The translations under genes and the position numbers were made by a program. A stretch of DNA of 64,000 bases from Dokdonella sp. (lineage in GTDB: Bacteria; Pseudomonadota; Gammaproteobacteria; Xanthomonadales; Rhodanobacteraceae): contig NZ_JAHCAQ010000001.1 of the NCBI RefSeq assembly GCF_019634845.1, positions 62,001 through 126,000 of the forward strand. The letters are read 5' to 3'. Shown one piece after another: positions 6,841-56,431 of the stretch (position 1 is the first letter of the stretch; every line of letters begins with the position of its first letter). Below the pieces are notes generated by a model. The model had not been told where the DNA came from, made no database searches, and was given only the letters and a program-made list of their open reading frames with translations.

Positions 6841-7425
6841 TCATTCGAAGCCGTCGCTGAAGAGGGCATCGGCCAGTGCTTCGACGAAGACATTGTCGAA
6901 ATTCGAGCTCAGCTCGGTACCGGTCGGCGCAAAAACGCGCAGGTGGATGCGCAGGGACCGATCGGTCGCGGCGGCGACGAGGGTGTCCTGCGTACGGACC
7001 CAGGTGTCGCGCAGGGTGACGTTCGGCGCGGCCAGATGCGCACTGGAATTGCCGCTGCACGCCGCCTCGGCATAAAGATTGGCGAACACCGTCGCGTACG
7101 CATTGTCGGGACTGGTGGCCGCGGGCAGCAGCACGCTGCCACCAAACCGGTAGCTGGTGCCGCCTTGCACGGCAACGCATTGCGAGGCGTAGATCGGGAT
7201 GCGGAACGTGCCGCTCGCAGGCAGGTTGCCGCGCAGCGAGCCTGAGCCGGGAGCGGCGTGTTCGTCGGCGGCATTCCACGCCGCGGTGACGCCGAAGGCT
7301 TCGAACAGGTCCCAATCGGCGAGATTGGAGTCGAAGCCAGGGTTCAGCAGCAGGTTCTGTGCCGGTGCGACGGCAGGCGTCAAGGCCGCGCCAGCGGCGA
7401 TGATGAGCGCAACGATGGGTCGCAT
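6841..7425 (-). CDS. secreted protein with C-terminal LFSDGFE peptide
   Basis: The 194-residue protein starts at the ATG at 7425, the first one that gives a signal peptide (MRPIVALIIAAGAALTPAVAPAQ, cleaved near APAQ-N). The mature part opens NLLLNPGFDSNLADWD, the usual beginning of a carbohydrate-binding-like (CBM_4_9-type) jelly-roll domain, and continues with beta-strand-rich sequence containing one pair of cysteines (Cys near YASQC and near EAAC). It ends at once after LFSDGFE (6844-6864), the short C-terminal peptide that recurs in five other gene products of this window. The open frame extends ~260 codons upstream, but that part is arginine/proline-rich translation of a GTCGG repeat and is not real. 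Function unknown; perhaps a sugar-binding surface protein. Confidence 0.85.
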   Translation of the reverse strand: MRPIVALIIAAGAALTPAVAPAQNLLLNPGFDSNLADWDLFEAFGVTAAWNAADEHAAPGSGSLRGNLPASGTFRIPIYASQCVAVQGGTSYRFGGSVLLPAATSPDNAYATVFANLYAEAACSGNSSAHLAAPNVTLRDTWVRTQDTLVAAATDRSLRIHLRVFAPTGTELSSNFDNVFVEALADALFSDGFE

Positions 7426-7468
7426 GTCGGGTTCCTCGTGGCAGTTGGGCGCGCCGCAGCGACGCGGC

Positions 7469-7520
7469 TCGGCGTCGGGTCGGCGTCGGGTCGGCGTCGG
7501 CGTCGGCGTCGGGTCGGCGT
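7469..7520. repeat. short tandem repeat of TCGGCG/TCGGGT units
   Basis: About 52 bases consist of imperfect copies of TCGGCG and TCGGGT in a row. The array sits 44-95 bases upstream of the start of the secreted protein at 6841-7425 and also upstream of the divergent cytochrome gene. Such arrays can vary in copy number by slippage; no coding function is supported, although the repeat keeps long spurious frames open on both strands. Confidence 0.75.
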
Positions 7521-7700
7521 AGTGCGAGTAACGCCATCCGCGGCGCGGTTGCGCCATGCCGCCGTGCATCGAGTCCGCCGGGCCGTGGCGGCGCTGGCCC
7601 GGCTCGACGCGGCAGGGGCTTGGCCCGGGCGGTGCACGGGCCAGGCCGGTGCGCGGCGTGCGCGGGCTACAATCGCGCGTCGACCACGGCGGGAGCGGCG

Positions 7701-8513
7701 ATGCGCTGCTGGTTGTTGTTGCTGATGGGCTGGATCGCGCTGCCGGTTGCGGCGGCGCAGCTGACGCTCGAACTCGATGGGACGCCGCGCGTGTTCGACG
7801 ACGCCAGCCTGCTTCGGCGCGCCGAAGTGCGCCGCATCGACATTCCCGACGACGTCGCCTACCGGCGCGACATGCGCTACCGCGCGCTGCCGCTGCGTGC
7901 ACTTCTGGCCGGCGTCGGGCCGGTCGACCATCTGCAACTGGTGGCGACCGACGGCTTTGTCGCGGAACTGCCGGCGGCGCTGCTGTGGAACACGGCCGGC
8001 AGCACCGCTTGGCTCGCGATCGAGGATCGGCGCGCGCCTTGGCCGCGCCTGCCGGGCAAGGCGACGAGTGCGGGACCGTTCTACCTGGTGTGGACCCAGC
8101 CGCAGGCGGCCGGTATCGGTACCGAGCGCTGGCCCTACCAGTTGGCCACGATCCGCAGGTTGCCGGGCGTGGCCGAACGCTACCCGGCGCTGCTGCCGGC
8201 CGCCGAGCTTGCACCCGACAGCCCGATCCGGCGCGGCTTCGCGGTGTTCCAGGCCACCTGCATGGCCTGCCACACGCTCAACGGCGCAGGCGCAGCCGAG
8301 GTCGGTCCCGATCTCAACCTGCCCTACGGGCCGACCGAATATCTGCGCGCGGATCTGCTGCGGGCGTATATCCGCCAGCCGCAATCGCTGCGGCACTGGC
8401 CGCGCGCACGCATGCCCGGCTTCGACGCGCGCAGCCTGCCCGATGCCGATCTCGACGCACTGCTCGACTACCTGCGCCACATGACCACGCGCAAGGCCGC
8501 GCTTCAGCCATAG
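7701..8513 (+). CDS. exported cytochrome c with molybdopterin-domain-like N-terminus
   Basis: The protein has 270 residues from the ATG at 7701, which begins a signal peptide (MRCWLLLLMGWIALPVAAAQ). Residues ~21-155 resemble the fold of the SUOX-type molybdopterin-binding domain: a beta-rich segment with RYRALPLRALLAGV, then VATDGFVAELPAALLW, then GPFYLVWTQP and WPYQLATIRR. I do not see the cofactor-ligating cysteine of true sulfite oxidases. A class I cytochrome c domain follows, with haem motif CMACH (Cys187, Cys190, His191) and a likely distal ligand Met238 in RARMPGF. It should carry electrons in the periplasm. The start is supported by the signal peptide. The 3' end overlaps the convergent SemiSWEET gene by 10 bases. 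Confidence 0.88.
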   Translation: MRCWLLLLMGWIALPVAAAQLTLELDGTPRVFDDASLLRRAEVRRIDIPDDVAYRRDMRYRALPLRALLAGVGPVDHLQLVATDGFVAELPAALLWNTAGSTAWLAIEDRRAPWPRLPGKATSAGPFYLVWTQPQAAGIGTERWPYQLATIRRLPGVAERYPALLPAAELAPDSPIRRGFAVFQATCMACHTLNGAGAAEVGPDLNLPYGPTEYLRADLLRAYIRQPQSLRHWPRARMPGFDARSLPDADLDALLDYLRHMTTRKAALQP

Positions 8514-8755
8514 CGCAGCTTGAGTGCGAGGATCGTCGCGGCCAGCGCGAACGTGACCGTGTTGGAAATGATCATCGGCCAGGAGTCGAGCAGGACGCCA
8601 TAACCGAGCCAACAGGCGATGCCGAGCGTGAACAGGCCATACATCCATGCCGAGATGCCGCGCGTGTCGCGCGTGCGGATCGCGCGCAGCGCCTGCGGCA
8701 CGAACGAGACCGTGGTCAAGGTGGCGGCGACGCTGCCGAGCCAGTGCGGATTCAT
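8504..8755 (-). CDS. SemiSWEET sugar transporter (MtN3/PQ-loop)
   Basis: This 83-residue protein is a single three-helix unit of the SWEET/PQ-loop family: helix one contains TTVSFVPQALRAIRTRDTRG, with the PQ motif, followed by a second helix (GLFTLGIACWLGYGVLL) and a third (NTVTFALAATILALKLRYG). The short GISAWMY stretch and the Asn in SNTVTF are typical of SemiSWEETs, which work as dimers and carry sugars by facilitated diffusion. The length is normal (about 85-90 residues). Its last 10 bases overlap the end of the cytochrome gene on the opposite strand. The substrate sugar is not shown by the sequence. Confidence 0.9.
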   Translation of the reverse strand: MNPHWLGSVAATLTTVSFVPQALRAIRTRDTRGISAWMYGLFTLGIACWLGYGVLLDSWPMIISNTVTFALAATILALKLRYG

Positions 8756-8802
8756 CGAGGGCGAGGCCGCGCGCGAGCGGACGTCGCGCGCCGGCGCGCG
8801 GT

Positions 8803-10137
8803 TCAGGGCTGGGTGGCCTTGCCGGCCTGCTTGTAGACCGTGCCGTCCTTCATCACGAACGACACCTGCTGCATGAGCGTGATGTCCTGCAGCGGATTGC
8901 CGTCGACCGCGATGACGTCGGCCAGTTTGCCGGCTTCCACGCTGCCGAGGTCCTTGCTCCGGCGCAGCAGTTCGGCCGCGTGCGTGGTGGCCGCCTGCAG
9001 CGCGTACATCGGCGGGATGCCGGCCTCGACCATGTACTGGAACTCCTTGGCGTTCTGCCCATGTGGATACACGGCCGCGTCGGTGCCGAAAGCGATCTTG
9101 ACGCCGGCCTTGTAGGCCCTGGCCGCCGTCTGCTGGATGATCGGGCCGACCAGCCTGGCCTTCGCCGCCACCTGTGGCGGGTAGTAGCCCGGCTTCGCGG
9201 CCATTTCCTGCACGTACTTGCCGGCGATGATGGTCGGCACGTACCAGGTGCCGTGCTCCTTCATGAGCTTGATGTCGGCATCGTCCATGAAGGTGCCGTG
9301 TTCGATCGAGTCGACGCCGCCGACCACGGCGCGACGGATGCCTTCGGCGCCATGGGCATGCGCGGCCACGGTGAAGCCGTAGTCATGCGCGGCGGCGACG
9401 ACGGCCTTGATTTCGTCGATCGTGAGCTGCGGGTTGTCGGCGCTCGTGCTTTCGTCGAGTACCCCGCCCGAGGGCATGATCTTGATGAGGTCGGCACCGT
9501 CCTTGTAGTGCTGGCGCACGGCCTTCCATGCATCATCGCTGCCATTGATGATGCCGTCCTTCGCGTGCGGGTCGCCCTGCAGGTCGGCACGGTAGCCATC
9601 GGTGTCGTCGGCGTGGCCGCCGGTGGAGCCGATCGCGCCGCCGGCGGTAAAGATGCGTGGGCCCGGAATCACGCCCGCGTTGATCGCATTGCGAAGGGCG
9701 ATCGAGGCATTGGCGCCGTCGCCGAGGTTGCGCACGGTGGTGAAACCGGCTTCGAGCGTGCGCCGCGCGTAGACGGTCGAGCGGATCGCATAATCGGCGG
9801 TGTTCCAGCGGAACTGGTCGGTATAGCCGGTGGGGCTGGTTTCGCTGGTCAGGTGGGTATGGCTGTCGATGAGGCCGGGCAGGCAAGTGGCGCTGCCGAG
9901 GTCGATCACGCGCGCACCGGCGACGTCGCCGCGGCCGGCCTGCACCGACTTGATGCGCGTGCCGTCGGTGACGATCGTCGTTTCGCCCAGCAGCTTGCCG
10001 TTGACCGGGTCGAGCAGGTGCGCGCAATGCAGGACAACGGGTTGCGCCGCCGACGCGGGCGCGTCCGCGGCGTGCGCGCTGGAGGCGCCGGCGGCGGCGA
10101 TGGCGAGAATCGATGCAGTGGCGGCGCGAAGCTTCAT
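8803..10137 (-). CDS. exported metal-dependent amidohydrolase
   Basis: The protein has 444 residues. I chose the ATG at 10137 over one at 10143 because GGGGAG lies at better distance from it; both give the same signal peptide (MKLRAATASILAIAAAGASSAHA). The amidohydrolase-superfamily metal site is visible: SHTHL (His93, His95), the carboxylate-lysine region after DLIKIMPSGG, then VAAHAHGAEG, GVDSIEHGTFMDD, and AFGTDAAVYPHG with the catalytic Asp. The sequence is of the imidazolonepropionase-like or Xaa-Pro-dipeptidase-like type (COG1228), and many such exported enzymes cleave dipeptides. A decayed copy of this gene lies just upstream (10300-10455), so the gene was once duplicated in tandem. 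Substrate unknown. Confidence 0.92.
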   Translation of the reverse strand: MKLRAATASILAIAAAGASSAHAADAPASAAQPVVLHCAHLLDPVNGKLLGETTIVTDGTRIKSVQAGRGDVAGARVIDLGSATCLPGLIDSHTHLTSETSPTGYTDQFRWNTADYAIRSTVYARRTLEAGFTTVRNLGDGANASIALRNAINAGVIPGPRIFTAGGAIGSTGGHADDTDGYRADLQGDPHAKDGIINGSDDAWKAVRQHYKDGADLIKIMPSGGVLDESTSADNPQLTIDEIKAVVAAAHDYGFTVAAHAHGAEGIRRAVVGGVDSIEHGTFMDDADIKLMKEHGTWYVPTIIAGKYVQEMAAKPGYYPPQVAAKARLVGPIIQQTAARAYKAGVKIAFGTDAAVYPHGQNAKEFQYMVEAGIPPMYALQAATTHAAELLRRSKDLGSVEAGKLADVIAVDGNPLQDITLMQQVSFVMKDGTVYKQAGKATQP

Positions 10138-10299
10138 CGGCATGGCTCCCCGGAAATGGACGCACATGCTAGCAGGGCGCTTGCGGCATCGGTGCGCTGC
10201 GCCCACGAATCATCGCAACGAGCAAGGCGTAGCCGCATGGATCGCTCGCCCCGCAGGTCGGGCGTGCTTCGCGCCTACCAGCCGGTGGGCGTGAACCGC

Positions 10300-10455
10300 C
10301 GCGCTGGCACGCGGCCTCCCACGCATCGTGGGTACCCTCGATGATGCCGGCACCCGCGCGATGGCGACGTCGCCGCGACCGACCTGCACCGACTTGATGC
10401 GCGTGCCGTTGGCGATATCGAGCCGGTGACCGCAAGGCAGCGCCAACGGTTGGGG
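10300..10455 (-). pseudogene. remnant of a second amidohydrolase gene
   Basis: Two blocks match the intact amidohydrolase gene next door, in the same order and orientation. Block one (10363-10416) matches the intact gene at the codons for GTRIKSVQAGRGDVA with 49 of 54 identical bases, and here reads GTRIKSVQVGRGDVA. Block two, at about 10305-10353, matches the codons for GIINGSDDAWKAVRQ (about 36 of 46 identical) and reads GIIEGTHDAWEAACQ. The blocks are in different frames and the ~130 codons that separate them in the intact gene are missing. Weaker similarity continues to about 10455 (LALPCGHRLDI against VVLHCAHLLDP). This is therefore a deletion- and frameshift-bearing remnant of a tandem duplicate. 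The counts are my own by-eye alignment. Confidence 0.8.
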
Positions 10456-10614
10456 CGCTGCGTCCTGGTGTGGCTGAAGGCGATGGCGCGGGCATGCGGC
10501 AGCGCGGCGACGCGGCGACGCGGATGCGCTGGCGCCGCCTGTGGCCGTGATCGGCCCGTGCTGGCGATCGCTGGCCGCGTTGCCGATGCCGACAGCCGCG
10601 GTACCGGTCCCGGC
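10456..10614. other. intergenic stretch without recognisable gene
   Basis: Between the amidohydrolase remnant and the hairpin at 10615 I find only G+C-rich sequence with spurious arginine/alanine-rich frames. The wider gap between the two flanking genes (10138-10660) holds the remnant, this stretch, the hairpin and, at 10138-10299, the intact gene's upstream region. Confidence 0.5.
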
Positions 10615-10656
10615 GGCGCGGCGGCTGCGGGTCAGACTGACCGCAGCCGCCGCGCC
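10615..10656 (-). terminator. long hairpin 3' of the gene at 10661-11002
   Basis: A perfect 16-base stem (10615-10630 pairing with 10641-10656) encloses a 10-base loop that can itself fold further (GTCAG/CTGAC). It starts five bases after the stop codon of the leftward gene at 10661. No run of T follows on the minus strand, so if it terminates transcription it may need Rho, or it protects the 3' end of the message. Confidence 0.65.
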
Positions 10657-10660
10657 GTGC

Positions 10661-11002
10661 TCACGGCCAGAACTCGTTGAAGCCGTCCCGGAAGATCGTG
10701 TCGTCATAGCAGGTCAGCGGTGACACCGCCAGCCGCGCAATGACGGCGAGCCCGCCACCTTGCTGCACCGGCAGGTCGACGCGCGCGGCCTGGAGGCGTG
10801 CCGCGAGCTGCACGGAACCCCCTTGCGCGGGTGGCGATGGCAGCGGCGCCAGACTGCCGCTGAGCGCGAAGCGCGCGCTGGTGGCGGTCGCGGGCAAGCG
10901 CGCCTGGGTCTTGCCGGCGGCGAGGACGGGCGCGGCGACGAGGGCGAGGGCGAGCGCCAGCAGCGGAGGGCCGCTGGCGCGCAAGCGCATGATCGCGTCC
11001 AT
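10661..11002 (-). CDS. small secreted protein ending TIFRDGFNEFWP
   Basis: The 113-residue product has an N-terminal signal sequence (RASGPPLLALALALVAAPVLAAGK). The start could be the ATG at 11002 or the one at 10990 (MRLRASG). The mature part (~85 residues) is beta-strand-like and has no recognised domain. It ends TCYDDTIFRDGFNEFWP, a version of the C-terminal peptide found in five other gene products here but with a five-residue extension. The gene starts one base after the stop codon of the S74-chaperone gene, so the two are translationally coupled, and a strong hairpin follows it. The pairing suggests that the two exported proteins act together; what they do is unknown. Confidence 0.75.
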   Translation of the reverse strand: MDAIMRLRASGPPLLALALALVAAPVLAAGKTQARLPATATSARFALSGSLAPLPSPPAQGGSVQLAARLQAARVDLPVQQGGGLAVIARLAVSPLTCYDDTIFRDGFNEFWP

Positions 11003-11003
11003 G

Positions 11004-15312
<4,309 letters not shown>

Positions 15313-15523
15313 CGCGGCGCGGTCAGTGCCGGCCGCGGGTGCGGCCGCATCGTGGCGGGCCGCGAGCCCGGGGCGGTCGATGGCGGGCGGTGCGGCGGCC
15401 TGCCACCCGGGTACGTGTCCGCCGGCGAACGGGGCTCTCGCCAAGACCAGCGCAGCGGGTTCGGGATTGCCGCCGCGTCGCGTTGCGTCGGGCTGCCCTG
15501 ACGCGCCGCGAAGATCGATAATG

Positions 15524-15539
15524 TACGACGAATGTCGTA
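15524..15539. promoter_or_regulatory. operator-like palindrome TACGAC-N4-GTCGTA
   Basis: TACGAC (15524-15529) and GTCGTA (15534-15539) form a perfect six-base inverted repeat with a four-base spacer, in a local A+T-richer patch. A GATAAT that could act as a -10 element lies one base upstream; I see no good -35 at normal distance. It looks like a dimeric repressor site, but no clear gene follows on the plus strand before 15848. Confidence 0.35.
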
Positions 15540-18683: not shown

Positions 18684-20657
18684 ATGCGTGCGTGCTGGTG
18701 GCTGCCCGCGTGGCTGGGCATCGCGCTGCCGGCGGCAGGCCAGAACGCGGCAAGCTGGGCGGACCTGTCGCTGTACGGCAACCTCGAGACTGCGGGCGTG
18801 ACGGCGACGCTCACGGGAGACGCCAACCGCAACGCGAGCGTGACGCTCGAATGGCGCCGCGTGGGCGAGGCGGCCTATCGCGCGGGCCACCCGCTGCTGC
18901 GGGTCGATGCGACGCACCTGGTCGGCAGCCTGTTCGATCTTGCGCCGGGCACCGCCTACGAGATCCGCGCGACACTGGCCGATCCCGATGGCGTCGGCGG
19001 GCCGGCGCTGCGTAGCGCGAGCGGTGCCACGCGCGCGGATCTGCTGGTCGAGCCGACGCTGCGGACCCTGTTCGTCGCGCCCGGCGGCAACGACGCCAAC
19101 GACGGCCTGAGCCCAACCAGCGCGCTGCGCAGCATCCAGCGCGCGGCCCAGCTCGCGCAGGCGGGCGATCTCGTGCGGGTGGCGCCGGGCCGCTACCACG
19201 AGGCGGTGAGCGTGCCGCGCTCGGGTAGCGCGGTGCAGCCGATCGTGTTCCGCGCCGATGGTGCCGGCGTGGTGCTCGACGGAGCCAGCCCACTGCCGGC
19301 CGGTACGACATGGAGTGCGCTCGGCAACGGCGTCTACCGCACCAGCCTCGGCCATGCCACGGGCCTGGTGGCGAGCGAGCAGGGCCGGCTGTTCCGCTAC
19401 GCGAGCGCGGCGGCGTTGCAGGCGCTGGCGGCCGGGGCACCGGGCGGCTTCTGGTTCGATGCGTCGAGCCAGCAGCTCAGCGTCAAGTTCGCCGACGGCT
19501 CGGCACCGGGCGCGCACCTGCTCGAGGTGGCCGACCTCGCCGCGGGCTTCACGCTCGATGGCCGCGCCTTCGTGCGCGTCGAGGGTTTCCTGATCCGCCA
19601 CTACGGCGTGGACGAGTACGGCAAGGGCGTGTACCTGCGCTACAGCGACGACTGCATCGTGCGCGGCAACCGCTTCGTCGACCTCGGCAGCGTCGGCGTG
19701 TGGGTCAAGGGTGGCGCGCGCAACCGCATCGAGGACAACGAGTTCAGCGACAGCTCGATCGTCGGCTGGCCATGGCCGGTGACCAAGGGCAGCTACGCCG
19801 AGGACAGCGCGATCCTGTTCACCGATGCGGTCGGCCGCGGCAACGTTGTCCGCCGCAACCGCAGCGACGGCCACTTCAACGGCATCGCGCCCTGCGGCGA
19901 CGCGGCGCCACCCGGCGGCGAGCTCACCACCGAGACCGACGTCTACGACAACGAGCTGCGCCATCACAATGACGATGCGCTCGAACCCGATGGCTACTGC
20001 GCCAATCTGCGCATCTTCGGCAACGTGCTTGCCGATTCGCACATGGGCGTGTCGGTGGCGCCGGCCTGGCCGGGGCCGGTGTGGATCGTGCGCAACAGCG
20101 CCTGGAACCTCGGCAACACGCGCACGAGCCAGGTCGATGGCTACATTTCGAGCTTCCTCAAGGTCAACAGCGGCTATCCCGAGATGGTCGGCCCGCTGCT
20201 GCTCTACCACAACAGCATCGTCACCGCGGCGCCGGCCACCGAGGCGATGTACCTGCTCGATCCGGGCGTGACCTCGACGCTGCGCAGCCGCAACAACCTC
20301 TACGTGGCCACGCGCTACGTGTGGGCCAAGGTCAACACGATCGCGGTCGATGCCGACTACGACCTGCTCCACACCAGCGATGCCACGCGGTTCGTGCGCT
20401 GGCTCGGCAGCAACTATCCGGATCTCGCCGCGCTGCGCGCCGCGCTCGGGATCGAGCTGCATGGGCTCGCCACGCCGCCGCGGCTCGTCGCACCGGCCAC
20501 GGGCGATCTGCGCCTGTTGCCCGACAGCCCCGCGCGCGATGCCGGCGTCGTGCTGCCGGGGATCAACGACAGCTACGACGGTGCCGCGCCCGACCTCGGT
20601 GCATTCGAGTGGCGCGACCTGATCTTCGCCGATGGCTTCGACACGGGCGGAACCTGA
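18684..20657 (+). CDS. secreted right-handed beta-helix protein with C-terminal IFADGFD peptide
   Basis: The protein has 657 residues from the ATG at 18684, which begins a short signal peptide (MRACWWLPAWLGIALPAAGQ); the start is less certain because no clear ribosome site precedes it. Residues ~30-120 look like a fibronectin-III-type domain (SVTLEWRRVGEAAYRAG, LAPGTAYEIRATLADPDG). From about residue 135 the sequence is a pectate-lyase-like parallel beta-helix: LFVAPGGNDANDGLSPTSAL, RVAPGRYHEAV, then turns such as DDCIVRGNRFVDLGSVGVWV, NRIEDNEFSDSS and HNDDALEPDGYCANLRIFGN. It ends LIFADGFDTGGT. Such proteins usually degrade or bind polysaccharide. A divergent position to the MerR operon is 263 bases away. 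Confidence 0.85.
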   Translation: MRACWWLPAWLGIALPAAGQNAASWADLSLYGNLETAGVTATLTGDANRNASVTLEWRRVGEAAYRAGHPLLRVDATHLVGSLFDLAPGTAYEIRATLADPDGVGGPALRSASGATRADLLVEPTLRTLFVAPGGNDANDGLSPTSALRSIQRAAQLAQAGDLVRVAPGRYHEAVSVPRSGSAVQPIVFRADGAGVVLDGASPLPAGTTWSALGNGVYRTSLGHATGLVASEQGRLFRYASAAALQALAAGAPGGFWFDASSQQLSVKFADGSAPGAHLLEVADLAAGFTLDGRAFVRVEGFLIRHYGVDEYGKGVYLRYSDDCIVRGNRFVDLGSVGVWVKGGARNRIEDNEFSDSSIVGWPWPVTKGSYAEDSAILFTDAVGRGNVVRRNRSDGHFNGIAPCGDAAPPGGELTTETDVYDNELRHHNDDALEPDGYCANLRIFGNVLADSHMGVSVAPAWPGPVWIVRNSAWNLGNTRTSQVDGYISSFLKVNSGYPEMVGPLLLYHNSIVTAAPATEAMYLLDPGVTSTLRSRNNLYVATRYVWAKVNTIAVDADYDLLHTSDATRFVRWLGSNYPDLAALRAALGIELHGLATPPRLVAPATGDLRLLPDSPARDAGVVLPGINDSYDGAAPDLGAFEWRDLIFADGFDTGGT

Positions 20658-20741: not shown

Positions 20742-23480
20742 ATGCACCTCAAGATGCTTGCCGCGGTGGTGGCGTTGGCCGCGGCCTGCGCGACGGCGGC
20801 GGCGCAGCAGGCCGATCCGTTCGCGCGCGATCCCGCGCAGGCGGTCGATGCGGCCTACGGCGCGAAGATCGCGCAGTACACCACCGCGCCGCGCTTCAAC
20901 ACCGCACTGACCGACTACCTGCCGGCCTCGAGCACGGTGCCGACCCCGGCCGTGGTGCTCGGCGACGTGGCCGGTGCGCCCGATATGCTGCCCTACACCG
21001 CCGACGTGCATCGCTATTTCCGCCTGCTCGCGGCGGCCACGCCGCGCGTGCGCGTGGTCAGCATCGGCAAGTCCGAGGAGGGCCGCGAGATGATCGCGGT
21101 GGCGGTCGCCGACGAGCGCCTGCTCGACGACCTGGACGCCAATCGCGCGCGCCTCGCGCAGCTTGCCGATCCGCGCACGATCGGCCTCGACGACGCGAAG
21201 GCCGACGCACTGCTCGCGCAGACCACGCCGGTCTACTACATCACCGGCACCATGCACTCGACCGAGACCGGCGCGCCGACTGCGCTGATGGAACTGGCCT
21301 ATCGCCTTGCGGTGGATGATGCGCCCTACATCCGCCGCATCCGCTCCAGCGTCATCACGCTGATCACGCCCGTGGTCGAAGTCGATGGCCGCGAGCGCAT
21401 GGTCGACCTCTACCGCTGGCACAAGGCCAATCCCGGCAAGCAGTATCCGCGCCTGGTCTACTGGGGTCACTACGTCGCCCACGACAACAACCGCGATGCG
21501 ATGGCGCTCACGCTCAACCTGTCGCGCAACGTGCTCGATACCTTCGTCGGCTGGCATGCGCAGGTTCTGCACGACCTGCACGAGTCGGTGCCGTTCCTCT
21601 ACGACAACACCGTGGGTGACGGCCCCTACAACGCCTGGATCGACCCGATCCTCGTCAGCGAATGGCAGCAACTGGGCTGGAACAACGTCGAGCAGCTGAC
21701 CCGGCTCGGCTTGCCCGGCGTGTACACGCATGGCGGCTTCGACACCTGGAGCCCGGGCTACATGATGTTCATGGCGGCGATGCACAACGGCATCAGCCGC
21801 CTGTACGAGACCTTCGGCAATGCCGGCGCCGACACGCTCGAGCGCGTCCTCACGCCGGCGCAGTACGACCGCACCTGGTACCGCCCCAATCCGCCGCTGC
21901 CGAAGGTGCTGTGGTCACAGCGCAACAACAACAACTACGAACAGAGTGGCCTGCTGACTGCGCTCGACTACTTCGTCGCCAACCGCGGCACCTTCCTGCG
22001 CAACTTCTACCTCAAGAGCAAGCGCTCGGTGGAGAAACCCAAGGCCGCCGGCCCGGCGGCCTACGTGCTCGCGGGTGACGACAGCCGCAGCGGTGCGCAG
22101 GCCGAGCTGCTGCGCGCGTTGCTCGCGCAGCACGTCGAGATCCACCGCGCCGATCGCGCATTCACCGTGCAGGTGCCGCAGCCGTGGGTGAAGTCGCCCA
22201 ATGCCGATCCCGCGATGCACCAGCCGGAGCAGCCGCGACTGGCGCCGCGCACGTTCGCGGCCGGCAGTTGGATCGTGCGCATGGACCAGCCCTATTCGCG
22301 CATCGCCGACACCCTGCTCGATCGCCAGTACTGGGCGCCGACCGATCCGCAGAAGAAGCCCTACGACGATACCGGCTGGTCGCTCGGCGACAGTTTCGGC
22401 GTGGACCTCGCCCGCGTCACCGACGCCGCGGTGCTCGCGGTGCCGATGCAGCGCGTCGGCCAGATCGACACGCCGTTCACGCCGGCCGCCCTTGGCGTCG
22501 CCGGTCGCATGCCGCGCATCGCGATCATGCACACTTGGCTGTCGACGCAGACCGAAGGCTGGTGGCGCATGGCGCTCGACCGGCTCGGCGTCAAGTACGA
22601 CTACCTCAGCACGCAGGACGTCGCGCGCCTGGACAAGCTGCGTCGCAACTACGACGTGATCGTGTTCGCGCCGGTCGGTGCGCGCGACACGCGCCAGATC
22701 GTCGATGGCCTGCCGATGTATGGCAACGCGCTGCCGTGGAAGAAGACCGCGCTCACGCCCAACCTCGGCCGCATCGATGCCACCGACGACATGCGGCCAG
22801 GACTCGGCGCGCGCGGCGTCGACAACCTCAAGCGTTTCGTCGCCGACGGTGGCCTGCTGGTGACGAGCGAGGACACCGCGCAGTGGGCGATCGAGCAGGG
22901 ATTCGCGCCGGGCGTCACGGTGACGCCGCGCAAGGAGCTGCGCGTGGTCGGCAGCATCCTCGAAGCGGTGCGCGTCGCCGCCGACAGTCCGATCGCGAAT
23001 GGTTACGACGCGCCGTTCGCGATGTACAGCAACGACGGGCTGTCGTTCGAGGTCAGCAACCTCGTCGGCGGCGACCAGGGCCTGCCCAATGCACGCGACT
23101 ACAAGCGGCCGACCGGTCGCGGTGGCCTGCACGACGAGGACGTGCCCGAAGGGCGCGGCTTCGAGGCGCCGCCGCCACTGCCGTTCGCCAAGCCGTGGCA
23201 GGCGCTGCCGCTCAATGCCGAGCAGGAGCGCAACAATCCGAACCTGATCCCAGCCGAGCTGCGGCCCCGCGTGATCGTGCGATGGGGTGACGAACCCAAC
23301 CTGTTGCGCGCGGGCCTGCTCGATCACGGCAAGGAACTGGCCGGCCGTGCCGCGGTCGTCGATGCGCGTTACGGCAACGGTCACGTGCTGTTGTTCGCGA
23401 GCAATCCGGTGTGGCGCGGCACCACGATCGGCAGCTATGCGCTGCTGCTCAACGCCCTCGCCCATCACGATCGCCTGTGA
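20742..23480 (+). CDS. exported M14 zinc carboxypeptidase family protein
   Basis: The protein has 912 residues. The ATG at 20742 begins a signal peptide (MHLKMLAAVVALAAACATAAAQ). The M14 metallopeptidase region spans roughly residues 80-400: YITGTMHSTETGAP supplies His172 and Glu175 of the zinc site, followed by VVEVDGRERMVDLYRWH, HDNNRDAMALTLNLSR and VLHDLHESVPFLYD near residue 277, which provides the third ligand region. The C-terminal ~500 residues include a glutamine-amidotransferase-like segment (MPRIAIMHTWLSTQTEGWWR, NYDVIVFAPVG), found in long bacterial M14 members that I would put in the zinc-carboxypeptidase/peptidase-M14-like group. It should trim peptides in the periplasm. A hairpin lies beyond the stop (23521-23545). 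Confidence 0.9.
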   Translation: MHLKMLAAVVALAAACATAAAQQADPFARDPAQAVDAAYGAKIAQYTTAPRFNTALTDYLPASSTVPTPAVVLGDVAGAPDMLPYTADVHRYFRLLAAATPRVRVVSIGKSEEGREMIAVAVADERLLDDLDANRARLAQLADPRTIGLDDAKADALLAQTTPVYYITGTMHSTETGAPTALMELAYRLAVDDAPYIRRIRSSVITLITPVVEVDGRERMVDLYRWHKANPGKQYPRLVYWGHYVAHDNNRDAMALTLNLSRNVLDTFVGWHAQVLHDLHESVPFLYDNTVGDGPYNAWIDPILVSEWQQLGWNNVEQLTRLGLPGVYTHGGFDTWSPGYMMFMAAMHNGISRLYETFGNAGADTLERVLTPAQYDRTWYRPNPPLPKVLWSQRNNNNYEQSGLLTALDYFVANRGTFLRNFYLKSKRSVEKPKAAGPAAYVLAGDDSRSGAQAELLRALLAQHVEIHRADRAFTVQVPQPWVKSPNADPAMHQPEQPRLAPRTFAAGSWIVRMDQPYSRIADTLLDRQYWAPTDPQKKPYDDTGWSLGDSFGVDLARVTDAAVLAVPMQRVGQIDTPFTPAALGVAGRMPRIAIMHTWLSTQTEGWWRMALDRLGVKYDYLSTQDVARLDKLRRNYDVIVFAPVGARDTRQIVDGLPMYGNALPWKKTALTPNLGRIDATDDMRPGLGARGVDNLKRFVADGGLLVTSEDTAQWAIEQGFAPGVTVTPRKELRVVGSILEAVRVAADSPIANGYDAPFAMYSNDGLSFEVSNLVGGDQGLPNARDYKRPTGRGGLHDEDVPEGRGFEAPPPLPFAKPWQALPLNAEQERNNPNLIPAELRPRVIVRWGDEPNLLRAGLLDHGKELAGRAAVVDARYGNGHVLLFASNPVWRGTTIGSYALLLNALAHHDRL

Positions 23481-26108: not shown

Positions 26109-26597
26109 TCACCCGCCGTCGAGACCGTCGCGGAAGATCGCGTCGTAGGTCTCGACGAAGGCGCAGTGGCCGTCGCTGGCGGCGCGCGCGAGCGCGTCGA
26201 TGTCGACGATCGCGGCATGCGAGAGCGCGCCCATCGGCGGGAACGTCGTGTTGCGTTGCTCGATCATGATGACGCCGAACAAGCCGCCATCGAAGTCGAC
26301 CCACGGCGCGTAGCCGAACTTGCCGATGCTCGAGATGGCGGGCTGCGCCGGTGCGGCCGGGAAGGTTTCGATCCAGGCGCCGATGCTGTAGGCGTGGCGG
26401 CCATCGGCGCCGGGCGGCGAATAGCCGAGCGCCGCGCCGGCGGTCTGGTCGCTGCCGAGCAGGACCAGCGCGGCCGGCGACAGGATGCGCCGGCCGTTGC
26501 CGACACCATGCCCGAGCAGCATCGCCAGTACGCGCGCGTAGTCGGGCAGCGTCGCCTGCGCGCCGCCGGCGATGCGGCTCACGAGCTGGCGCGGCAT
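26109..26597 (-). pseudogene. 3' fragment of a class C beta-lactamase-like serine hydrolase
   Basis: About 160 residues remain, from around RQLVSRIAGGAQATLPDYAR to the stop. The sequence matches the C-terminal part of exported serine hydrolases (beta-lactamase class C/AmpH type): LAMLLGHGVGNGRRILSPA, SIGKFGYAPWVDFDGGLFG, then MIEQRN. The catalytic SxxK and YxN motifs and the signal peptide, which lie in the missing N-terminal part, are absent, and the frame runs back only into the promoter of the suf operon. It ends DAIFRDGLDGG, a version of the C-terminal peptide of this window. I call it a 5'-deleted remnant. An unrecognised shorter protein is possible but unlikely. Confidence 0.7.
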
Positions 26598-49614: not shown

Positions 49615-49684
49615 AGCCGAAGGCCGCGCGCACGCTCAATTGCGCCAGGCGGTGGCGTGTGCACCGCAGCGAGCGGTGGCCGGG

Positions 49685-50398: not shown

Positions 50399-50409
50399 CG
50401 GCAATGAAA

Positions 50410-50433
50410 ACGGGGCCGGTTGTCCGGCCCCGT
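50410..50433 (-). terminator. intrinsic terminator of the secreted nuclease gene
   Basis: Read on the minus strand, ACGGGGCCGG-loop-CCGGCCCCGT forms a 10-base stem with a four-base loop and is followed by TTTTCATT. It lies about 30 bases after the stop codon of the nuclease gene at 50464-53424. It is the one classical rho-independent terminator in the window. Confidence 0.85.
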
Positions 50434-50463
50434 CGAGCAGCGGTCGCCCGCAAGGATAGCCGC

Positions 50464-53424
50464 TTACGGCGTCATGTCGAAGCCGTCGGCGAAGATGCGG
50501 TCGACCACCAGGGTGACGACCTTGCCGTCGTGATCGCCGCTGCGCGCGGCGGTGAGGTCGTTGAGGATCACGCCGCTGGCCTCGGCGACATCGGCGTTGC
50601 CATGCGCGTTGGACACGCCGATGAAGTCGCGCCAGGCGAGCCGCGACAGCAGGATGTGATCGATCTCCTGGGTGAGGCCGCTGAACGTGAACGAGTAGTG
50701 GCTGGCCGGGTCGGCCGCGCTGCCGGTATCGAGCAGTGCCGGCGCCGGCGCCACGTAGGTGGGCGTGTCGGTGTTGGCGGCGTTGCCCGTGAACCAGTAC
50801 AGGTTGCTGCCCTGGTCGGCCGTGCCCATGATCATGCCGGTGACGTCGGCGTAGCCGTCACTGAACTGGTAGGCGTTGAAATCGCCGGCGACGATCAGCG
50901 GCACATCGGCGTCGCCGACGAGGTCGAACGGGCCGGCCGTGAGCGTACCGTCGGCGGCCTGGCGCGTGGTGCCGGCGCCGACCAGCGTGGCGCCGCTCTG
51001 CCACGCCTGCACGATCTGCGCCACCTGGGCGGCCTGTTCGGCGCGCTTGGGTCCGACATAGGGCTTGCTCGGCAGGCCACTCATCGAACGGTTGTACATC
51101 GACAGGAACGCGAAGGGGTAGCCGTTCCAGCTCGCCCGCATCAGCAGCGGCGGCCGGTCATTGAGTTTGCACGAGCTGCCACTGGAGCAGTTGACGGTCA
51201 GCGTGGTACGGAACAACTGCGTGACCGAATCGACTGTCACGTCGTCGCGCGCGAGGATGCCGAGGTTGATGCCGCCGGGATCGTTGCCCTGGATGAGATA
51301 GGGCACGTAGGCGGTGCCGCAGCGCGTCTGCACGCTGGCGGCGAGATCGGCCAGCACGTTGCGGTTCTCGATTTCCTGCACCGCCAGCAGCACGGGTGAT
51401 TTGAGCACGTCGCAGATCTGGCGCGACCACTTGTCGCGGCGGATCTGGTATTGCGCAGCGGTCGGGCAGGTGTCGTTGGCGCCGGTGCCGGCGCAGGTGT
51501 CGTTGTAGGCGCCGTTGTTGGCGCTGCCGTCGGCGACGTTGTTGAAAAGGTGCAGGAAGTTCTGCGAGCCGATCGTCAGCGTGCCGGCCACCGGCGTGGC
51601 CACCGGCTGCACCGCATCGGCCGGCGTCTTGCGCACCAGTGTGGTCATGTCGCGCGGATACAGCTCGTAGATCGGCGTGGTGGCCGATGCAGGCTTGTAG
51701 GCCTGAATCACGCCGGTGACCGCGAAGGTGGTGCCGGCGTGGTAGACGAAGTCGGACGGATCGTCGTAGTCGGGATTGTCGTGGCCCGGATCGTCGCTGC
51801 CGGCGGCGAAGCCCAGGCCGTTGTAGAACACGGTCAGCACCTGCGGCGCGCCGCCCCACACCGGGATTTCCGGATGGCCGCTGACGCCGGGGAACTGCAC
51901 GCCGGGGCCACGCGCCGGGCGCGGCTGGCTGGCCAGCGCGGCGTAGAAGCCGGCCGGATTGCCGGTGTGGATCGCATCGCCACCGCCCGAGCTGTAGGTG
52001 CCGCCGGTCACGCGGGCCTCGTTCATCCGCACCAGCATGCCGTCGAGACAGGTGAAGTTGCTGGCCTGGTAGCCATCGGTCACGGGATCGACCGTACTGC
52101 CAGCCGCCATGCAGATGCCGGTGGTCGGGTCGCTGCTCGGCGGGTGGTCGTCGAGCACCCAGGGCGCGACGGTCGGGCCGGTCGCGGCGGTTACCGCGAC
52201 CGTCGCCGTGGTCAGTTCGGTGATGCCGAAGTATTCGGTGACCTTGCCCGTCACCGTCACCTGGTTGCCGACCGTCACGCTCGGTGCGGTCACGGTGTAG
52301 ACGTAGATGCCGTCCGAGGTCGTGGTGTCGCCATCGCCGACCGGATCCTGCATGAAGAAGCCCTTGGGTCCGACCGCGGTGACCACATTGCCGGCCGTGG
52401 TGACGATCTGGCCGACCAGCGGCGAGGTCGCGCCGTGGCCCTGGATCTGCATGATCGTGAGCGGCGGTGCCGTGACCGTGAGCGCGATCGTAGTGCTGGC
52501 CGTGCGGCTCTGGTCGTCGACGACGCTCACCGGCAACGACTTGCTGCCCGGCGTGGTCGCGCCGTCCACGGTGGCCGCGTAGGTGAACAGCTGATGGCCG
52601 CTGCCGTCGGGGCCGGCGTCGCTGAACGTGGCCGGATTGGCGCCGCCGATCGCGCTGAGATTGGCGCTGACCGTGTAGCTCGCACTGGCCGGGCTGGTGC
52701 CCGGCGTGACGACGACGGTCAGCGTGGTGCCGGCGCCGGGCGCCACCGCTGCCGGACTCGCACTGCCGGTCGCGCTGGGGTTGGTCGGGCCGCCACCGCC
52801 GCAGGCATTGAGCGTGGCACCGCTGTTGCGCGGCGTCGGCGCGCCGGCGAGGAAGTCGGCGGCGTTGTCATCGGTGTCGGTGCAGCCGTCGGCCTTGCGC
52901 AGGCTGGCCGTGGTATTGCTCGGCGCCGGCGCGGGGCCGCTGCCCTCGTAGCAGTTGGCGGTGGTCGCGAAGCCGAGGAAGTCGACGATCGCGGTGCCGC
53001 TTGGGCAGTTGCCGCTGAGCGCGGTGGTATTGCTCACCAGCGCGAGCTTGCCGCCGCTTCCCGCCATCGCGATCGTGCCGCTCGCATCGGGCGTGGGCAG
53101 GTCGACGGTGCCGCCGCTGCCGGCTGCCTGCTGGATGAGGAAATACTGGCCCGGCTGCAACGTCACCGAGGCGCCGAGCGGCGTGACCTGCCAGGAGGTG
53201 CCGGTCGCGCTCGAGTATTGCACCGACCAGCCGCCGATCGATACGGGCGTACTGCCGGCGTTGAACAGTTCGATGAAATCGTTCCTGTAGGTGGCGCCGC
53301 TGTTGCCGCCGCCGCCATAGGCCTGGCTGATCACCACGCCACTGCTGCTGGCGCCCGCCAGCGGCGCTGCACACCCCAGCACCAGCGCAAGCGCTGCGCC
53401 GGCGAGCATTCTCGTTGCCTTCAT
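50464..53424 (-). CDS. secreted LTD-OB-EEP nuclease (ExeM-like), with C-terminal IFADGFD peptide
   Basis: The 986-residue protein starts at the ATG at 53424, which has GGGGG five bases upstream and a signal peptide (MKATRMLAGAALALVLGCAAP). In order: a lamin-tail domain (VVISQAYGGGGNSGATYRND-FIELFN), a beta-sandwich linker (TTLTVVVTPGTSPASASYTV), an OB-fold region with SPLVGQIVTTAGNVVTAVGP and KGFFMQDPVGDGD, and an endonuclease/exonuclease/phosphatase domain (TIGSQNFLHLFN, VLLAVQEIENRNVLADLA, PLIVAGDFNAYQFS, EIDHILLS). This is the ExeM-type extracellular DNase architecture, used to take nutrients from DNA or to remodel biofilm. It ends VVDRIFADGFDMTP. ExeM proteins normally end in a membrane-anchored or GlyGly tail; this one does not. 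Confidence 0.92.
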   Translation of the reverse strand: MKATRMLAGAALALVLGCAAPLAGASSSGVVISQAYGGGGNSGATYRNDFIELFNAGSTPVSIGGWSVQYSSATGTSWQVTPLGASVTLQPGQYFLIQQAAGSGGTVDLPTPDASGTIAMAGSGGKLALVSNTTALSGNCPSGTAIVDFLGFATTANCYEGSGPAPAPSNTTASLRKADGCTDTDDNAADFLAGAPTPRNSGATLNACGGGGPTNPSATGSASPAAVAPGAGTTLTVVVTPGTSPASASYTVSANLSAIGGANPATFSDAGPDGSGHQLFTYAATVDGATTPGSKSLPVSVVDDQSRTASTTIALTVTAPPLTIMQIQGHGATSPLVGQIVTTAGNVVTAVGPKGFFMQDPVGDGDTTTSDGIYVYTVTAPSVTVGNQVTVTGKVTEYFGITELTTATVAVTAATGPTVAPWVLDDHPPSSDPTTGICMAAGSTVDPVTDGYQASNFTCLDGMLVRMNEARVTGGTYSSGGGDAIHTGNPAGFYAALASQPRPARGPGVQFPGVSGHPEIPVWGGAPQVLTVFYNGLGFAAGSDDPGHDNPDYDDPSDFVYHAGTTFAVTGVIQAYKPASATTPIYELYPRDMTTLVRKTPADAVQPVATPVAGTLTIGSQNFLHLFNNVADGSANNGAYNDTCAGTGANDTCPTAAQYQIRRDKWSRQICDVLKSPVLLAVQEIENRNVLADLAASVQTRCGTAYVPYLIQGNDPGGINLGILARDDVTVDSVTQLFRTTLTVNCSSGSSCKLNDRPPLLMRASWNGYPFAFLSMYNRSMSGLPSKPYVGPKRAEQAAQVAQIVQAWQSGATLVGAGTTRQAADGTLTAGPFDLVGDADVPLIVAGDFNAYQFSDGYADVTGMIMGTADQGSNLYWFTGNAANTDTPTYVAPAPALLDTGSAADPASHYSFTFSGLTQEIDHILLSRLAWRDFIGVSNAHGNADVAEASGVILNDLTAARSGDHDGKVVTLVVDRIFADGFDMTP

Positions 53425-53572
53425 CGTCGCCCCCATCGTCGTGATTGCGTGCGCGGCGAACGCCTGCGTTCATGCCGCAGGCAGCCCGCAGCCCCGGCGG
53501 CGATTGTCCCGCGGACGCCACGGCGGCACCAGTGCCGGCGCCGCCGGTCGTGGCGGCTGGCGACCCGCGCGC

Positions 53573-54619
53573 TCAGGTCGGCCGCGCGAACACGGTGATT
53601 TCCTCGCGGTCGTGGTAGAGCTGGCGCGCGCGCAGGTCGAGCGGCGCGGCGACTTCGTTGCGCAGCAGGTCCAGGCACAGCTCCACCTCGGCGTAGCGCT
53701 TCTTCATCGGCAGCTTGAGATTGAAGATCGTGTAGCGGCACCAGCCTTGCGCGAGCCAGTGCGCGATGCGCGCGGCAACCCGCCGCGGCTGCTCGACCAT
53801 GTCGCAGACGAGCCAGTCGACACTCTTGCGCGGCTGCCAGGCAAAGCCGTCCGCGCGCAGGTGCTCGACCAGGCCCGAGGCCATCAGCCCGGCATCCATC
53901 GGCCCATTGTCGACCGCGGTGACGTGCAGCCGGCGCCGCACGAGCTGCCAGGTCCACCCGCCTGGCGCCGCGCCGAGGTCGACCGCGCGCATGCCCTCGC
54001 GCAGCCAGCGCGCGCGCTCGTCGGCATCGAGCAGCACGAGCAGGGCTTCCTCCAGCTTGAGCGTCGAGCGGCTCGGCGCGCCGGGCGGGAACTTCAGGCG
54101 CGGGATGCCGCCGGGCCAGGGTGAGCTGCGGGCCACGTCGGCGGCGCAGACAAAGGCATCGCGCCCCGACTCCAGGCACACATGCAGGCGCCAGCGCGAG
54201 TCGCGCTCGAGCAGGTGGCGCTGGCGCAGCGTGCCCAGCAGCGCCGCATTGAGGCCGCGGCACAGTGCGGCGAGTTCGCGCGCCGCGTCGTTGTCGGGTG
54301 CTTCGACCACGACGTCGCACCAGCGTCGCGGGTCGGCCTCGAGCAACGGCAGCAGGGCGCTGATGCGGTCCTGCGCCGGCATGTCGCGCGCGCGGCCGAG
54401 CACCACCAGCGCCTGGCGCGCGAACACGAACCGATGCCAGTCGGCGGCCAGCGTGGCCGCATGCGCACTCACGAACTCGACGAATCCGCTGCCACGTTCG
54501 CTGCGCGCGTAGCCGCCACCGCCGTGGCCGAGGTCGTGTGCGGCCAGTTCCTGGGCCAGTTCGGCCTCGAAGCCGGGTCGGCAGTAGGCGAGCAGGGCAG
54601 TGGGGGCGGGTGTCGACAT
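53573..54619 (-). CDS. rlmM: 23S rRNA 2'-O-ribose methyltransferase RlmM
   Basis: The 348-residue protein matches RlmM (YgdE), which methylates C2498 of 23S rRNA. The N-terminal THUMP-like part has AYCRPGFEAELAQELAAHDL. The AdoMet-binding motif is AVDLGAAPGGWTWQLVRRR, then VTAVDNGPMD and the catalytic-type DWLVCDMVEQPRRVA. The C-terminal region contains NLKLPMKKRYAEVELCLDLL and ends REEITVFARPT. The start at the ATG at 54619 fits the family. It runs leftward, divergently from the GH44 gene, and the nuclease gene follows after 148 bases. Confidence 0.92.
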   Translation of the reverse strand: MSTPAPTALLAYCRPGFEAELAQELAAHDLGHGGGGYARSERGSGFVEFVSAHAATLAADWHRFVFARQALVVLGRARDMPAQDRISALLPLLEADPRRWCDVVVEAPDNDAARELAALCRGLNAALLGTLRQRHLLERDSRWRLHVCLESGRDAFVCAADVARSSPWPGGIPRLKFPPGAPSRSTLKLEEALLVLLDADERARWLREGMRAVDLGAAPGGWTWQLVRRRLHVTAVDNGPMDAGLMASGLVEHLRADGFAWQPRKSVDWLVCDMVEQPRRVAARIAHWLAQGWCRYTIFNLKLPMKKRYAEVELCLDLLRNEVAAPLDLRARQLYHDREEITVFARPT

Positions 54620-54760
54620 GCGCGCGGCGGCGGGGCAAAGCGCGCATGATGCCTGCGTCGCCGCAGGCTGGCGAATGTGACGGCGTGATGGGTTTGCGGC
54701 GACATCCGCGTAGTAGCGTGACGGGAGGCCGCGAAGAGCGCGGTCGACGGGGAAAACACC

Positions 54761-56431
54761 ATGCCTTGCCGCCATCATCGTCCGCTGCTGTGCCTGCTTG
54801 TCGCTGGCTGTGCCGGTTCCGCCGCCGCCGCGGTCAACGTCAGTGTCGACGCGGCCGCCGACGTGCGTCCGTTCAGTCCCCTCATCTTCGGCATCAACTA
54901 CGGCGACGCCGCGCGCAATGCGGTAATCGGCTATCCGCTGCGGCGCTGGGGCGGCAACTCCACCACGCGCTACAACTGGCAGGTCGACGTGCACAGCACG
55001 GCCGACGACTGGTACTACGAGAACATTCCCGGTGCCAGCGACCGCAGCCAGGTGCCGCCGCTGGGCAACGCCGCCGATGCGTTCGTGAGCGCCACCCGCG
55101 GCTGGGGCGGCGAGGTGCTGCTGACGATCCCGACCATCGGCTGGACACCGCGCGCCGACAGCCCGCAGTCGCATCCGTATTTCGCCGGGTTCTCGGTGGC
55201 CAAGTACGGCGCGCAGCAGTCGACCGACCCATGGGATCCCGACGCCGGCAATGGCGTGCGCAGCAATGGCACCCTGATCACCGGCAACGATCCGCACGAC
55301 ACCTCCAGCGCAGTCACGCCCGCGTTTTGGACGCCGTGGATCGCCCATCTGCAGGCCAGCTTCGGCACCGCCGCCAGTGGTGGCGTGCGCTTCTATGCGC
55401 TCGACAACGAAGTGATGCTGTGGAACTCCACCCACCGCGACGTGCATCCGGCACCGACGACTTATGACGAAACCTGGGCCAAGGCGCTCGCCTACGGCAG
55501 TGCGATCAAGCAGCAGGATCCGGCCGCCCAGGTCCTCGGTCCCGTCACCTGGGGCTACTGCGACCTGTTCGGCTCGGCCGCCGACGACTGCATGGATGGC
55601 AGCGACCGCAGCGCGCACGGCGGGCTCGCCTTCGTGGCCTGGTATCTGCAGCAGGTCTGCGCCAATCCGCTGCCCGGTGGCGCGCGCGTGGTCGACTACC
55701 TCGACCTGCACTACTACCCGCAGGGCCAGAACGTGTCGATGAGCGACGACGACTCCAGCGCCACCGCGGCGCGGCGCCTGCGCGCGCTCAAGGAGCTGTA
55801 CGACCCGGCGTGGGTGTCCGAGTCGTGGCTCGCCGATCTCGGCGACTTCGATGCCAACCACTACAGCAAGCCCCAGCTGATCCGCCGCGCACGCGCGTGG
55901 ATCGACCAGTACTGCCCGGGCACGCGGCTGGCGATCACCGAATACCGTTGGGGCAACGATGGCACGGCCAGCGGCGCGGTGGCGCAGGCCGAGCTGTTCG
56001 GCCTCTTCGCGCGCGAGGGCGTCGACATGGCCACGCGCTGGGTCGCGCCCGAGGCCAACACGCGCGTGGAGCGGGCCTTCCAGTTGTTCCTCGACTATGA
56101 CGGCGCTGGCGGCCGCGTGCAGGGCAGCAGCGTGCGTGCGGTCAGCGCCAACGTCGACCAGGTTGGCGCCTACGCCTTCAGCAGCGGTGCGCGCACGTTG
56201 CTGCTGCTCACCAACAAGACCGCCTCGGCGCAGGACGTCAACGTCGCCTTTGCCGCTTCGCCCGGCGCCCAGTGGACGCTGTACGGCTTCGACGCTAGCC
56301 AGCCCGTGCACGAGATCGCGAGCGGCACGCTGGCCGGCACCAGCCTGAGCCTCACCGCGCTGCCGGCGATGTCGGCGAGCCTGCTCGTGATCAGTGGCAA
56401 CGACGTGATTTTCCGCGACGGCTTCGATTGA
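54761..56431 (+). CDS. secreted glycoside hydrolase family 44-like protein, C-terminal IFRDGFD
   Basis: The 556-residue protein follows GGGGAAAA and starts at the ATG at 54761, which begins a signal peptide (MPCRHHRPLLCLLVAGCAGSAAAA). The GH44 catalytic domain fills most of the rest: FGINYGDAARNAVIGYPLRR, then RWGGNSTTRYNWQ, the acid/base YALDNEVMLWN (Glu217) and the nucleophile LAITEYRWGN (Glu394), at about the spacing expected in GH44 endoglucanases/xyloglucanases. A C-terminal beta-sandwich (residues ~455-545, AVSANVDQVGAYAFSSGART) is typical of the family. It ends NDVIFRDGFD. It should degrade plant beta-glucan outside the cell. Confidence 0.9.
   Translation: MPCRHHRPLLCLLVAGCAGSAAAAVNVSVDAAADVRPFSPLIFGINYGDAARNAVIGYPLRRWGGNSTTRYNWQVDVHSTADDWYYENIPGASDRSQVPPLGNAADAFVSATRGWGGEVLLTIPTIGWTPRADSPQSHPYFAGFSVAKYGAQQSTDPWDPDAGNGVRSNGTLITGNDPHDTSSAVTPAFWTPWIAHLQASFGTAASGGVRFYALDNEVMLWNSTHRDVHPAPTTYDETWAKALAYGSAIKQQDPAAQVLGPVTWGYCDLFGSAADDCMDGSDRSAHGGLAFVAWYLQQVCANPLPGGARVVDYLDLHYYPQGQNVSMSDDDSSATAARRLRALKELYDPAWVSESWLADLGDFDANHYSKPQLIRRARAWIDQYCPGTRLAITEYRWGNDGTASGAVAQAELFGLFAREGVDMATRWVAPEANTRVERAFQLFLDYDGAGGRVQGSSVRAVSANVDQVGAYAFSSGARTLLLLTNKTASAQDVNVAFAASPGAQWTLYGFDASQPVHEIASGTLAGTSLSLTALPAMSASLLVISGNDVIFRDGFD

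Follow-up and report, generated by a model that had tools for sequence, protein, structure and literature searches.

Why should unrelated exported proteins of one bacterium end in the same short peptide? The question is raised by a 64-kb stretch of a Dokdonella sp. genome (contig NZ_JAHCAQ010000001.1, positions 62,001 to 126,000; 69.8% guanine plus cytosine), which was analysed over its full length and is called the window here. An earlier sequence-only reading had reported that six gene products in the window close with [I/L]F-x-D-G-[F/L], a motif that we refer to as the tag. Outside one order, Xanthomonadales/Lysobacterales, the tag is all but absent; within that order it co-occurs with a second type II secretion system (T2SS), designated T2SS-A, whose GspC protein (GspC-A) bears a PDZ domain. 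We propose, from comparison of sequences, that the tag is probably a portable linear targeting signal, an address, for T2SS-A.

A short peptide on many exported proteins

A six-frame scan of the window with the pattern [ILVMF]F.DG[FLIVM] returned exactly the six tags reported, each with 1–5 residues between motif and stop codon. Four carriers lie on the minus strand: an exported protein of 194 residues (6841..7425; tag LFSDGFE, 6844-6864) and a small exported protein of 109 residues (10661..10990; IFRDGFNEFWP, 10664-10696), both without a Pfam match at E 0.01, a fragment (26109..26522; IFRDGLDGG, 26112-26138), and an ExeM-like nuclease of 986 residues (50464..53424; IFADGFDMTP, 50467-50496; Pfam LTD and Exo_endo_phos). 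The two on the plus strand are a beta-helix protein of 657 residues (18684..20657; IFADGFDTGGT, 20622-20654; Pfam Beta_helix) and a GH44 glycosidase of 556 residues (54761..56431; IFRDGFD, 56408-56428; Pfam Glyco_hydro_44). The fragment is a C-terminal stretch without a clear start, read as 137 residues; its label as a serine hydrolase found no backing from Pfam at E 0.01. The nuclease has a tagged relative (L069) in a Lysobacterales metagenome-assembled genome (MAG), matching at 25% over 737 residues. AlphaFold2 gave unusable models for the 194-residue protein, predicted from a single sequence (mean predicted local distance difference test score, pLDDT, of 35.6), and for the beta-helix protein with two relatives (mean pLDDT of 28.3). 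The sole tRNA found in the window, tRNA-Leu (CAG) at 21075-21167 on the minus strand, overlaps an opposite-strand open frame (20742-23480).

The source genome is a draft of 3,261,924 bases in 27 contigs, 90% complete. A DNA pattern for IFxDGF (ATYTTYNNNGAYGGNTTY), outside which the window variants LFSDGFE and IFRDGLD fall, matched it 40 times, and the reversed pattern did not match at all. This excess, found mostly at C-termini, speaks against a chance origin of the motif. The C-terminal placement described in the sequence-only reading held for 33 of the 40 sites, which end within 6 residues of the stop, and failed for the other seven, where 21, 118, 120, 208, 211, 274 and 315 residues follow the motif. 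The internal motifs with 118–315 residues after them (L045, L052, L053, L062, L063, L066) lie at apparent domain junctions and resemble the one internal case known for MYXO-CTERM, which has been ascribed to gene fusion (PMC11980579). Two tagged loci on different contigs (L042 and L060) have identical last residues (NVGNVAVSCIDRIFADGFDEAP) and are probably recent copies.

The carriers are unrelated, as had been suggested. A set of 40 motif-bearing proteins, comprising 34 with a terminal motif and 6 with a displaced or internal one (two further near-copies were omitted), matches 41 Pfam families, of which the commonest, Peptidase_S8, occurs in only 6 proteins; a single shared fold is thus not the source of the common end. 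Other families include GH44, M14, M28, GSDH, Sortilin-Vps10, beta-helix and DUF11. The sequence-only reading had named M14 among the exported peptidases without the tag; as a class, M14 peptidases do not lack it, since one of the 40 matches Peptidase_M14. Signal peptides are enriched among tagged frames (26 of 33, against 49 of 134 controls, p = 2.3e-5) by a crude, home-made score, for which a narrower choice of start gave 20/33 against 37/134. No untagged, machine-like neighbour was found beside the tagged genes when frames of at least 120 residues were clustered over 37 source-genome stretches and 63 named loci; among the first 60 clusters, which were judged by eye, most untagged frames were out-of-frame or antisense readings. 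A literature search with literal tag strings and the subject found no description of the tag.

Strict matches to the tag occur in 117 of 398 genomes of the order, with up to 106 per genome; elsewhere in the class, one or two matches, near background, occur in 18 of 364 genomes. Named genomes were also scanned for the motif directly before a TGA stop codon, which gave at least 119 loci; 80 of these were analysed. Among these 80, the tags that end long frames belong to Lysobacterales (Dokdonella, Marinicella and others) or to loosely named MAGs, assigned only to gammaproteobacteria, proteobacteria or, once, Oceanospirillales, and the matches in distant taxa such as Listeria, Bacillus and Bacteroidales look like chance because their frames have only 5–29 residues. 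Marinicella encodes the same peptide with AT-rich codons and selection therefore acts on the protein. Within the genus of the window, one genome (G001; 2.7 Mb, 80% complete) has zero strict matches, and all 14 other listed relatives have 13–108.

The core of the tag is D-x-I-F-x-D-G-F-[D/E], in which the x position tolerates many residues. An Asp that no earlier search pattern contained lies two positions ahead of the Ile in 30 of 34 source-genome tails and in 49 of 65 named-genome tails (from the 80 loci analysed, 17 of which were dropped beforehand: one lacked an in-frame match, another had 78 residues and the rest were short frames). Asp or Glu directly follows the last Phe in 30/34 source-genome tails. 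With lineage-specific spellings, including IFxDRF and IFxDDF, the consensus broadens to D-x-[I/L]-F-x-D-[G/R/D/S]-F-[D/E]. A tally of tail composition agreed with the sequence-only reading that the tails have neither a hydrophobic helix nor a basic end, and those of the window stop 1–5 residues past the motif. The tallied tails are also without Cys, Gly-Gly or an Arg-rich end and hence differ from GlyGly-CTERM and MYXO-CTERM tails, and they do not show the PEP motif, helix and basic end of PEP-CTERM tails (a comparison of tails; exosortase was not searched for).

Pairing with a second type II secretion system

We compared a chosen panel of 20 tag-positive and 20 tag-negative genomes. Two full GspD genes were found in 19 of the tag-positive genomes, and the 20th has one plus a contig-edge fragment adjoining its GspC-A gene. 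The tag-negative genomes have one GspD in 15 cases, none over the cut-off in 2, and two or three in G082, G085 and G095. A quick-method GspD tree of 60 rows, which omits the third G095 copy and a G143 fragment, resolves into a type A clade with 19 tag-positive rows, G085 and the long-branch G082, whose place is doubtful, and a type B clade with 20 tag-positive and 19 tag-negative rows, including Xanthomonas. The Xps-type T2SS, represented by type B, is found in tag-positive and tag-negative genomes alike and does not track the tag. A second GspG (172–194 bits) is present in 16/16 tag-positive and 1/16 tag-negative genomes, the one being G085. This phylogenetic profile of a few chosen families thus supports the secretion or sorting role that the sequence-only reading had listed first, and the co-occurrence with a PDZ-type T2SS favours it. 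The other roles listed there were attachment to the surface and recognition by a protease or chaperone; surface attachment might still follow such export.

T2SS-A is apparently complete and stands beside the ordinary Xps-type T2SS. The type-A GspD of the source genome (L200:8836-10947) matches Secretin, Secretin_N and GspD N0, and scores 551 bits against TIGR02517. Type-A genes run gspC-gspD-gspE; of 20 stretches, 10 have gspF close by and 9 have ftsX there. In the source genome, C, F, G, I, J, K, L, M and N were found by Pfam at two places: gspF near gspC-gspD-gspE, and gspG, I, J, K, L, M and N on contig 8. The gspE gene was assigned by BLAST grouping only, and none of the searches of this genome identified gspH. 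A T2SSC domain is present in all 20 GspC-A proteins, and Pfam detects a PDZ domain in at least 19 of them (PDZ_2 in 19, PDZ_6 in 19), where an ad hoc pattern gave 11/20. Xanthomonas XpsC is described as having a single predicted helix where the PDZ domain would sit (PMC11981180).

Two features of the surroundings may be mentioned. A gene for an extracytoplasmic function (ECF) sigma factor, a possible regulator, lies upstream of type-A gspC in the source genome (L200:2673-3368, minus strand) and in Marinicella (L212). Four tagged frames fall within the 19–20 kb stretches around type-A GspD genes (L212, L220, L222), and none was found around type-B genes, half of whose scanned stretches come from tag-negative genomes.

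The pairing extends to the 398 genomes of the order, scored with a GspC-A profile and a relaxed tag pattern. Tag excesses below 4 were scored negative; GspC-A positives include matches down to E = 2.4e-20, and weaker ones, to 1e-5, were scored negative (G290, G329 and G376 in family f1, G224 in f10, and the rest in f2, for example genus g56). Tag and GspC-A occur together in 109 genomes, the tag only in 14, GspC-A only in 17 and neither in 258 (phi 0.82, Fisher 1.4e-62), and phi stays at 0.79–0.82 for tag thresholds of 5 to 10. Counted by genus (n = 98), the same classes hold 35, 2, 6 and 55. Eleven of the 14 tag-only genomes are 65–94% complete. The p values overstate the case because genomes are not independent. 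Stratification by family, from tables compiled by hand like the co-occurrence entries and summing to the 398-genome table, gives p = 5e-22, carried by f1 (19/1/2/103, in the order above) and f2 (3/0/1/124).

The family tables bear on the proposal that a periplasmic protease or chaperone recognises the tag, or that the tag protects the C-terminus, in which case the pairing with T2SS-A would reflect shared ancestry only. Tag and T2SS-A are both old in the order and some families offer no internal contrast, as this proposal would have it. However, the pairing holds inside f1 and f2, and G023, which has neither tag nor type A, carries an Xps-type GspD that groups in type B with that of tag-positive G170, which suggests a separate joint loss. 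We regard this explanation as quite improbable.

Genus g19, which we take to be Wenzhouxiangella, put the pairing at risk: most of its genomes have GspC-A and, by the strict pattern, few tags. Variant tags turned up. The relaxed pattern gave 24–105 matches in six g19 genomes versus 5–6 for the reversed pattern, while the same search in five genomes without tag and type A gave 3–12 versus 3–5. Seven g19 loci were read: a tag closes five of them (IFKDRFE, IFSDRFD, IFSDRFE, IFQDRFE, LFFDAFE), and the other two have none at the end.

A candidate address and its putative reader

T2SSs export proteins from the periplasm in the folded state. We propose that the carriers would cross the inner membrane by means of their signal peptides and then fold in the periplasm, where the tag would pick the folded proteins for T2SS-A, which would move them across the outer membrane. 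The likeliest reader of the tag, albeit an unproven one, would be the terminal PDZ domain of GspC-A. In Vibrio, one substrate depends on the GspC PDZ domain, and the signal of that substrate is an immunoglobulin (Ig) fold (PMC12369372); it is this role of the domain, together with the pairing described above, that leads us to read the tag as an address for T2SS-A.

A tagged M28 aminopeptidase (L043) suggests that the tag behaves as a module. Its close orthologs, 54–61% identical, were found in 6 of 30 genomes searched, all tag-positive (one copy per genome was compared; a second G341 copy and a broken G382 copy were left out). Three of the six continue through a linker into a tag (RIFADGFEP, IFSDDFEVVVD, IFGDDFDTAPTGR), one has IFAHGFE at the tag site followed by more chain, and two have no tag and a long extension resembling, by eye, PKD, PPC and P-domain units. 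Among other tag-positive genomes, the M28 protein is tagged in G029 and G256, bears near-variants in G026 and G058 (LFAGDFED, IFASGFE) and has no tag in G379, G112, G059 and G170; the best M28 locus is untagged in 16/16 tag-negative genomes. Close orthologs thus differ at the same site, with a tag, a buried tag or another C-terminal sequence, in support of a portable address. As an observation on its own, the repeat-domain extension that replaces the tag in L301 and L303, compared with L298-L300, is perhaps an alternative export determinant.

Several points weigh against the address reading. The PDZ-dependent signal of Vibrio is an Ig-fold and not a peptide (PMC12369372). Seven of the 40 source-genome sites are not C-terminal. 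Unlike typical PDZ ligands, which keep a constant spacing from the C-terminus, the tag lies at varying distances from it. Three genomes of 97–99% completeness (G392, G118, G084) are tagged with no GspC-A match; conversely, G085, G163 and G187 have GspC-A and no tags, and G249, G272 and G347 have a GspC-A-like match and no tags (relaxed matches versus reversed: G085 15/10, G272 7/7, G249 3/0, G347 2/1). Family f8 has no significant association (2/4/4/29, p = 0.22), f9 and f10 are uninformative, and families other than f1, f2 and f8 can hardly show one. Joint inheritance leaves fewer independent events. The pairing itself is a correlation, and with few families profiled, some other gene might follow the tag just as well.

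Among the exceptions, G085 (L258, L259) and G163 and G187 (genus g57) are small genomes with T2SS-A and no tag excess, in which either the cargo is no longer the same or the tag departs from the search patterns.

The carrier families bring in another possibility, that the tag marks T2SS-A cargo for attachment to the surface or for C-terminal processing, and is bound or cleaved by some protein during or after export. NCBIfam matches among the 40 carriers include choice-of-anchor Q (6), choice-of-anchor J (2), ExeM/NucH and rhombosortase- and myxosortase-dependent M36 models, although part of these matches are weak or arise through a shared domain. Judging by the model names, such families bear other C-terminal sorting signals in other bacteria, and the peptide takes the same place here; the 25 NCBIfam families with the most matches, out of 58, include no model of the tag itself. 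The anchor and M36 matches would suit attachment or processing, as would the use of T2SS by GlyGly-CTERM and MYXO-CTERM proteins (PMC11980579). A report on a Wenzhouxiangella strain describes proteinase activity that is cell-bound and absent from the supernatant, a hint that fits export equally (PMC7691419). Set against these, the tag has no hydrophobic helix, Cys or Gly-Gly, and seven of the 40 sites are followed by 21–315 residues. The sortase search, which covered rhombosortase and not exosortases or myxosortase, found rhombosortase (TIGR03902) over the cut-off in 2 of 41 genomes, both tag-negative, with tag-positive G170 just below (80.1 of 84 bits). Anchoring or processing is the strongest competitor of the address reading, although we consider it rather unlikely. 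Rhombosortase was rejected as a general partner, none being over the cut-off in the tag-positive panel genomes.

A related idea is that a C13 (legumain-like) transpeptidase cuts after the tag Asp and joins the protein to the surface. The Asp-Gly-Phe of the tag resembles plant Asx-ligase sites and is invariant in nearly all source-genome tags. However, Arg, Asp or Ala may replace the Gly, and the C13 family (PF01650) is missing from 7 of 20 tag-positive genomes and present in 14 of 20 tag-negative ones. Such a transpeptidase is barely credible as an explanation, and the C13 peptidase was rejected as tag reader on its near-equal occurrence (13/20 versus 14/20).

If, on the other hand, the tag is an address for T2SS-A, a portable peptide is tied to one of two T2SSs in the cell, which is testable with simple reporter fusions, and T2SS-A cargo would be readable from sequence across a large order rich in uncultured members.

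Relation to known sorting systems

Like the tag, the C-terminal domains of type IX secretion are C-terminal signals for an outer-membrane machine. The type IX signal is a folded domain and its machine belongs to Bacteroidota, whereas the tag is a short peptide.

GlyGly-CTERM tails have, besides their Gly-Gly motif, a transmembrane helix and a basic end. The tag, in contrast, spans about 9 residues with no helix and no basic end, and no rhombosortase was over the cut-off in the tag-positive panel. The GlyGly-CTERM/rhombosortase system is alike in that many exported proteins without common ancestry, ExeM-like nucleases among them, share a C-terminal tag, and in that these are T2SS cargo (PMC11980579). 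MYXO-CTERM/myxosortase is also similar, with a lineage-specific tag on dozens of proteins per genome and export by T2SS, yet the invariant Cys, transmembrane helix and Arg-rich end reported there are absent from the present tag (PMC11980579).

Selection of some cargo by a GspC PDZ domain has its parallel in VesB and EpsC of Vibrio, where the signal is the Ig-fold of one protein (PMC12369372), whereas the present tag is a short peptide on dozens of proteins and we infer the PDZ step. The T2SS-dependent lipoprotein motif of Acinetobacter, which involves GspN, a component also present in T2SS-A of the source genome, is likewise a short motif that helps T2SS cargo to the surface; unlike the tag, it is N-terminal, beside the lipobox, and is reported to be required but not sufficient (PMC12802150).

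The chances seem to us evenly balanced that the tag represents the first common linear T2SS signal: a helix-free, mostly C-terminal peptide of about 9 residues with lineage-varying spelling, by which the PDZ domain of GspC would direct dozens of folded proteins of unrelated structure to a second T2SS dedicated to them.

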